Assembly: GCF_000337595.1 (NCBI RefSeq)
Contig: NZ_AOIL01000050.1
Location: 15,482-47,582 of the forward strand
Length of the DNA: 32,101 bases
Reading direction: 5' to 3'
From: Natrialba taiwanensis DSM 12281
GTDB taxonomy: Archaea > Halobacteriota > Halobacteria > Halobacteriales > Natrialbaceae
A program made the position numbers and the translations under genes. Below are positions 28,392 through 29,060 of this stretch, in pieces. Below the pieces are notes generated by a model. It was not told where the DNA came from and searched no databases. It saw only the letters and a list, made by a program, of their open reading frames with translations. Numbering within the stretch: the stretch's first letter is position 1; each line of letters opens with the position of its first letter.

Positions 28392-28484
28392 GCGAGCACC
28401 GAGTTCAGTTCAGACGGTCGAGTTCTGTGGTCCGGGTTCCACGGGGCCAGTAGCAGGCGCTCCTTCCCGTCGTTCAGCGGTAGA

Positions 28485-28490
28485 TATAAG
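28485..28490 (+). promoter_or_regulatory. TATA box of a candidate small RNA
   Basis: TATAAG lies in a good AT context and is flanked by the inverted repeat GGTAG (28479-28483) / CTACC (28494-28498). Initiation about 27 bases downstream would fall at or just before the first base of the folded element at 28515. Confidence 0.5.
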
Positions 28491-28514
28491 TCACTACCAG
28501 TTAACAATTAGGAC

Positions 28515-28573
28515 GGAAGCCACATCGGACATGAAAGTGTCCCGGATGTTGGAGCATCCGAGACGTGGCTTCC
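28515..28573 (+). ncRNA. Candidate structured RNA: three-way junction
   Basis: These 59 bases fold almost completely. P1 pairs GGAAGCCAC (28515-28523) with GTGGCTTCC (28565-28573), continued by T25-A63 and C26-G62 after one A-C mismatch. P2 is GGACA, loop TGAAAG, TGTCC (28527-28542). P3 is CGGATG, loop TTGGAG, CATCCG (28543-28560). Only A28561 is unpaired at the junction. A TATA box sits at the right distance upstream, and no convincing protein frame covers it. It lies in the 318-bp spacer between the lipid kinase and the zinc protein. It could be a free small RNA, a leader element of the downstream gene, or the hairpin end of a lost IS200/IS605-type element. The opposite strand would fold equally well. 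Confidence 0.5.
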
Positions 28574-28612
28574 ACCCCGCAAGGGTCAAAGCCATGATTG
28601 CGTACATTCTCA

Positions 28613-28630
28613 CGGGATATAAACATCCCG
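28613..28630 (+). other. Hairpin downstream of the candidate RNA
   Basis: CGGGAT, loop ATAAAC, ATCCCG form a perfect six-pair stem whose loop side includes TATAAA. It could end the candidate RNA, or the TATAAA could start the next transcript. Confidence 0.35.
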
Positions 28631-28709
28631 CACGACTGACGGATCGGTATCCCAAGCGAGCAGCGGCTCTTACAGGCGGTCTCGGGAACGCGCCGAGGTG
28701 TTCGACTGC

Positions 28710-29060
28710 GTGACCGACGACGATGCCGCACGCAACGCGACTAGCGACGGCACCGGCAGAACGGTCGAGACGAGCACGGCTGGCACTGATACCGGCGAGA
28801 CGGACGACGCGGAATCCCTCGGGTCGGAGGTGTCCATGACGGATCCCGACAATGCGGACCCCGACAATGCGGACCCCGACAATACGGACCCTGGCGACAC
28901 GACGGACGGTCCAGAAACCCCGTTTCCGCGCTGTCCGCGCTGTAACACGCCCATCGTCCAGCGGACCATGATCGGGCCGGGCGAAGCCATCGCCGGTCCC
29001 TGCGGCTGTCGCGTCGCCCCCCGCGTCGGCACGCGCTCACAATCGGACTCCGACGACTGA
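28710..29060 (+). CDS. Small CPxC zinc-ribbon protein with disordered acidic N-terminus
   Basis: This 116-residue protein has residues 1-70 disordered and rich in Asp, Thr and Gly, with a PDNAD repeat. The compact C-terminal part has CPRC (75-78) and CGC (C98, C100), a probable zinc site of the small haloarchaeal CPxCG-type proteins. Most such proteins have unknown functions. Start choice is uncertain: GTG at 28710 (MTDDDAARN) fits haloarchaeal N-termini, GTG at 28698 lies 26 bases after CTCTTACAG, and ATG at 28836 would leave only the repeat and zinc part. Confidence 0.6.
   Translation: MTDDDAARNATSDGTGRTVETSTAGTDTGETDDAESLGSEVSMTDPDNADPDNADPDNTDPGDTTDGPETPFPRCPRCNTPIVQRTMIGPGEAIAGPCGCRVAPRVGTRSQSDSDD
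28845..28889 (+). repeat. 15-bp tandem repeat inside the zinc-protein gene
   Basis: Three copies of CCCGACAATGCGGAC (the third with one A substitution) encode PDNAD-PDNAD-PDNTD. The first two copies are identical, which points to recent slippage. Confidence 0.85.

Follow-up and report, generated by a model that had tools for sequence, protein, structure and literature searches.

To our knowledge, very few natural translational switches have been found in archaea. As of 2021 the fluoride riboswitch of Thermococcus kodakarensis was the sole natural archaeal riboswitch shown by experiment (PMC8241225), and structured archaeal leaders, some with a multistem junction, are known from ribosomal protein genes such as that of S15 in Halobacteria (PMC7247131). 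Translational coupling by termination-reinitiation at overlapping stop and start codons (ATGA) has been reported for archaea including Haloferax (PMC6728339). In Halobacterium, a small basic ORF adjoins a small zinc-finger gene in the Brz/Brb and Bp4/OE2447F pairs, which are reported to be co-transcribed and in the case of Bp4/OE2447F overlap by 7 bp (PMC3184054). The haloarchaeal C(P)XCG zinc-finger micro-proteins, e.g. HVO_2753, are short zinc ribbons with two cysteine knuckles, and PATEs and IS605-type transposons occur as many dispersed copies with palindromes (PMC3119063). The locus described here resembles each of these systems in part. Its structured RNA lies 5' of two coupled coding ORFs, and we consider it likely that it is a cis-acting, riboswitch-like leader which gates translation of a two-gene mRNA, a prediction made from sequence.

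The leader lies in the 32,101-nucleotide stretch of DNA that we analysed (the window). A previous sequence-only reading had described a TATA box followed at promoter distance by a three-way-junction RNA beginning 27 nucleotides further on. The positions agree with this: the TATA element, read directly, is TATAAG at 28485-28490 (plus strand) and P1 starts at 28515, and 91 of 98 copies of the leader have a TATA-like element upstream of P1, at a median distance of 27 nt. This spacing would place the transcription start just upstream of the three-way junction. The GGTAG/CTACC inverted repeat that the same reading saw around the TATA box does occur in the window (28479-28498, read directly), but even a 4-bp inverted flank is present in just 21 of 98 copies, so that the repeat is probably incidental, and as an operator it was rejected for this lack of conservation.

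The three-way junction itself (28515-28573, plus strand) is well supported. Its helices are P1 (28515-28523/28565-28573), P2 (28527-28532/28537-28542) and P3 (28543-28548/28555-28560), of 9, 6 and 6-7 bp, within the 5 to 11 bp proposed at first, although the junction leaves three unpaired bases (A28524, A28561 and C28564) where a single one had been expected. The segment 28485-28573 folds at -36.1 kcal/mol, compared with -19.1 +/- 2.9 in dinucleotide shuffles (z -5.93, 0/200). Over 99 copies, 97.0% of the cells of P1-P3 and P5 (a hairpin further downstream) are paired, and 10 of 27 pairs show double changes, in 107 cells against 28.5 in shuffles (0/500), in a model-based alignment (A6) that was fitted to the covariance model, so these counts lean towards the model structure. 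A6 was used because P2 of long variants is misplaced in the MAFFT alignments A1 and A5. Compensatory changes are found in all three stems (0/500 shuffles), and the covariation signal was destroyed by a partner-sliding control. The stem structure is under selective conservation. Outside the modelled helices, the junction strand AGAC (28561-28564, plus strand) is conserved at 100, 97, 91 and 100% over the 99 copies, and A28535-A28536 in the P2 loop are near-invariant in the same set. Between P1 and the start codon lies a small hairpin of variable sequence, P4 (28576-28585, plus strand), whose pairing arms differ among copies and whose region folds at -4.4 kcal/mol, compared with -1.3 in shuffles (98 copies). 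The covariance model also gives a weak match of 28 bits to the minus strand at 28480-28576, as palindromic stems would lead one to expect.

This RNA is widely distributed. The window's genome has 18 dispersed copies of the block, and DNA searches found 2 to 19 in sister genomes. Of 125 genomes from the family to which the window's genome belongs, 82 match a covariance model built from 26 copies; they represent 23 of 29 genera, and some have at least 28 copies. Weaker matches to the model lie in five other families of the order. Relatives could also be traced by the zinc-ribbon protein encoded downstream, in Natrialba, Halopiger, Halovivax and Natrarchaeobius. Others lie on plasmids of Natrinema, Natribaculum, Halomontanus and Halopiger. 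The earlier impression that no described RNA has this shape agrees with Rfam, where the leader has no match at the gathering threshold or at E up to 5; a search of the stretch for tRNA and tmRNA found none. Pattern scans of IMG/VR yielded chance matches only, among the matches listed and inspected, and blastn of one divergent relative against phages gave no match. Some copies are decayed: at L012:2140-2263 (minus strand) the TATA element, the start codon (ACG) and P5 are all degenerate, and in genomes G002 and G005 similarly weak copies adjoin a good copy.

Dispersed, multi-copy sequences with palindromes could point to mobile DNA, and the fold had indeed been suspected to be the end hairpin of an old IS200/IS605 element. 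Such an origin, as a PATE or some other derivative of IS200/IS605 that ends in this fold as a hairpin, would find a precedent in the PATEs common in Haloquadratum (PMC3119063), but the flanks of the copies are highly similar in sister species. Each of the 17 loci fetched in the window's genome has one or both flanks in common with a locus of genome G005, in most cases both, and mostly at 91-98% identity. The genome contains 14 TnpB-domain loci, none of them near the 18 copies. One locus without a copy in G002 retains a truncated 5' fragment beside the conserved flank, and its copy was therefore lost by deletion and not by clean excision; another locus has no matching flanks in G002. Neither clean empty sites nor recent new insertions were seen when flanks were compared with the sister genomes. 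At the window's own site the copy is limited to a three-species cluster, while the other genomes have the upstream gene without a copy and a different neighbourhood, so old gain or loss at sites occurs. The copies are vertically inherited in sister species and not mobile. They differ from PATEs and IS605-type transposons in this inheritance, in the missing association with TnpB, and in carrying a conserved promoter and ORFs, including a gene under purifying selection. We regard a transposon origin as extremely improbable.

Directly after P4, at 28594, is the ATG of a small ORF of 39 codons, MIAYILTGYKHPARLTDRYPKRAAALTGGLGNAPRCSTA (28594-28713, plus strand). Its TGA (28711-28713) overlaps the GTG start (28710) of a gene for a small acidic zinc-ribbon protein of 116 aa with the motifs CPRC...PCGC (28710-29060, plus strand). 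A downstream CxxC...CxC ORF is present in 80 of 98 copies, and in 79 of these 80 the stop of the small ORF falls no more than 16 nt from the zinc-ribbon start (49 at -1), compared with 2/160 for the other two frames. The single outlier is explained by copies with an internal N and a duplicated stretch of the zinc ORF (L011, L015), probably an assembly join artefact. A Shine-Dalgarno-like GAGGTG, read directly, precedes the zinc-ribbon start at 28695-28700 (plus strand), and 43 of 80 copies have such a motif. From the overlap, and by analogy with the termination-reinitiation known in haloarchaea, we infer that translation of the small ORF and the zinc-ribbon gene is coupled.

The hairpin P5 (28613-28630, plus strand; 98% of cells paired) had been noticed as a separate hairpin following the fold. 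The hairpin exists and is conserved. Rather than forming an element of its own, however, it sits inside the coding frame at a fixed distance from the AUG: the spacing from the AUG through P5 is a constant 40 nt in 98 of 98 copies. In one of its pairs, 16 copies carry a GC-to-AU double change that alters the peptide; judged by its sequence variants, P5 is kept as RNA. A TATA-like string in the P5 loop was considered as an internal promoter and rejected, because P5 variants such as GGGACTTGAATGTCCC do not retain it. The tail of the small ORF evolves as if neutral, with a nonsynonymous fraction of 0.715 against a neutral expectation of 0.713 and an even spread of changes over the three codon positions (94, 88, 91) in 35 ortholog comparisons between non-independent pairs from three species. 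The length of the ORF differs in just 2 of 37 comparisons. A neutral tail with a preserved frame, and a stop kept on the start of the zinc gene, suggest that the small ORF probably hands ribosomes on by termination-reinitiation, and that its importance would lie in the path it gives to ribosomes, not in its peptide.

The zinc-ribbon gene, in contrast, is constrained, with a nonsynonymous fraction of 0.483 compared with 0.734 (10 comparisons), indicating purifying selection, and its CPxC and PCGC motifs vary hardly or not at all. No Pfam or NCBIfam model scores above its cut-off for this protein, which sets it apart from the C(P)XCG micro-proteins. An AlphaFold model of one member has a mean pLDDT of 79.7, and a fold search of the PDB with this model gave nothing significant (best E 0.25). 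In its N-terminal part the protein carries acidic DPDNADPDNADPDNTD repeats (28846-28893 in the window), whose number varies among sister species. With a median pI of 11.4 for the small ORF and 4.2 for the zinc protein, the adjacent basic and acidic zinc-finger ORFs, overlapping in 79 of 80 copies, recall the Brz/Brb type. The selected basic protein of that type is lacking here, as the tail of the small ORF is neutral in the 35 ortholog comparisons. Bp4, moreover, would start about at the transcription start, and no structured leader was seen for these pairs in the passages of that study that were consulted (PMC3184054). In five loci (L115, L136, L145, L154, L157) what follows the leader is another small protein rich in cysteine (CYRCDRDVAP...CCPDCAAAMNLSEFSE), whose frame likewise overlaps the small ORF at -1. 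Neither the small ORF nor the zinc gene is listed for two plasmid loci in the PLSDB gene tables, although these tables are incomplete, and on NC_015667.1 (pHALXA02; L190) and NZ_CP082248.1 (L191) the conserved leader and downstream part lie in stretches without a listed gene. The gene family seems to be under-annotated.

Our duplex calculations connect the leader to the start codon. The switching strand CGUGGCUU (28564-28571, plus strand) has two possible partners, the 5' arm of P1 and the start-codon region. In the latter, the 8 nt AAGCCAUG (28589-28596, plus strand), of which the last three are the small ORF's AUG, mimic the P1 5' arm. Over 98 copies the alternative duplex has a mean energy of -11.0 kcal/mol, compared with -4.8 for shuffled AUG regions. 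When the two states are imposed, the AUG-hiding (OFF) minus the AUG-free (ON) energy has a median of -1.75 kcal/mol over 98 copies and is +1.9 in the window, where the junction form is favoured; these energies apply to 37 C at standard salt instead of molar KCl, and the minimum-energy fold does not tell which state is dominant in the cell. In some relatives the OFF helix is part of the minimum-energy fold. That the two folds are nearly isoenergetic in these models suggests a translational switch by two competing helices.

The alternative helix is 84% paired within the Natrialbaceae set and shows no double changes there, because the P1 3' arm is nearly invariant in this set. Its covariation comes from divergent relatives only, where the pairs read GGTCTTT/AAAGACC (L168), GGCTTTCC/GGAAAGCC (L173) and TGCGGTCG/CGAACCGCA (L180). 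When 15 arm types were permuted with fixed alignment windows, the observed value of -133.4 was lower than any of 20,000 permutations (-96.4 +/- 8.7; 0/20,000 as low), and a hand-picked arm set likewise gave 0/20,000. The signal is weaker for the nine weak-hit arm types of the divergent relatives alone (37/20,000). As both partners change together in divergent relatives, the partners of the switching strand behave as competitors. In a minority of copies (e.g. L088, L050, L162) the alternative pairing is poor. The mutually exclusive helices at the start site are computed structures, with covariation in divergent members.

These observations also bear on the proposal that the locus encodes a new small RNA family. 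The new RNA family part of it stands, as there is no Rfam match, copies are many and the structure is kept in at least 23 genera. For the small RNA part there is a better reading, in which the fold forms the 5' leader of an mRNA with translational coupling and is able to pair with the start codon of that mRNA. A separate, trans-acting small RNA with incidental downstream ORFs could explain the TATA box of its own, the compact fold and the many near-identical copies, but the start-codon complementarity, the fixed 40-nt AUG spacing through P5 (98/98) and the overlap of stop and start (79/80) connect the RNA with the ORFs, and we think such an RNA improbable.

For the favoured cis-acting leader we propose the following mechanism. 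In the computed ON state, with the junction closed by P1, the small ORF would have a free AUG. In the computed OFF state the P1 3' arm would leave the 5' arm and pair with the AUG region, with P4 in the loop, hiding the start codon. With the AUG free, ribosomes would read the small ORF, terminate at the overlap and reinitiate at the zinc-ribbon gene; given this stop-start overlap with reinitiation, the switch would also control the zinc-ribbon protein. The balance might be tipped by a ligand or protein at the conserved junction, or by co-transcriptional folding kinetics. The structured 5' leader, the mutually exclusive helices and the predicted hiding of the start codon in one state are shared with translational riboswitches, to which we liken the leader. 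It differs from them in hiding the AUG rather than the Shine-Dalgarno sequence and in reaching at least 28 copies in some genomes.

Within this model, different agents could set the balance. Zinc ribbons are often nucleic-acid binders, which raises the question whether the leader is a protein-binding site, perhaps for the zinc-ribbon product itself, with feedback as in ribosomal-protein leaders. The same two folds would serve, and a small-molecule ligand would not be needed. Within one genome the copies all have this leader and code for homologous proteins, and junction mimicry is known from ribosomal-protein leaders in Halobacteria (PMC7247131), from which our leaders differ in having no ribosomal protein gene among their genes and no Rfam match. 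But related leaders elsewhere precede unrelated proteins (PadR-like, CxxC and SWIM-like), and the zinc-ribbon protein has no significant sequence or fold match, so we hold the protein-binding version as a tentative possibility. Somewhat less likely still is a metastable fold that acts as a timer or as a temperature or ion sensor, in which P1 would form first and be rearranged later without a specific binder. Near-isoenergetic states and the 5'-to-3' order of the arms are in keeping with this version, as is a synthetic riboswitch in Haloferax with switching 12-fold up from 3 to 4 M NaCl (PMC8241225), whereas a binding pocket or a tertiary contact is suggested by the near-invariance of AGAC in the junction and of the A residues in the P2 loop.

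The divergent relatives show how far the leader has spread. Contig C7 of genome G233 (219,066 bases), possibly a plasmid or an integrated element, has 11 divergent leader copies; a TnpB and a weak PIN-domain match lie nearby (L188, L189). Some of the divergent leaders of G233 stand before a PadR-like regulator, whose Pfam match (E 1e-5) narrowly misses the cut-off, and others before small CxxC proteins, and by our own reading of the sequences SWIM-like proteins follow related leaders in other genomes. Several of the relatives with other genes retain the stop-start overlap and P5, which argues that the leader architecture may be a portable control device. It is conceivable, though speculative, that the leaders form a new natural archaeal riboswitch class, which would sense a specific small molecule or ion. 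By sequestering the start codon and using an ORF dedicated to ribosome delivery, this class would control dozens of homologous small genes in each genome, and other haloarchaeal families would have divergent subclasses of it.

The leader family is present in the majority of the genera sampled from a large haloarchaeal family, reaches at least 28 copies in some genomes and marks a poorly annotated gene family. Its small ORF offers a natural example of an ORF that is apparently retained for the frame and not for the peptide, and would link a structural switch to termination-reinitiation. The family offers a clear two-state model that is open to testing, and if the switch is true, it would be a new and very abundant riboswitch-like family in haloarchaea.
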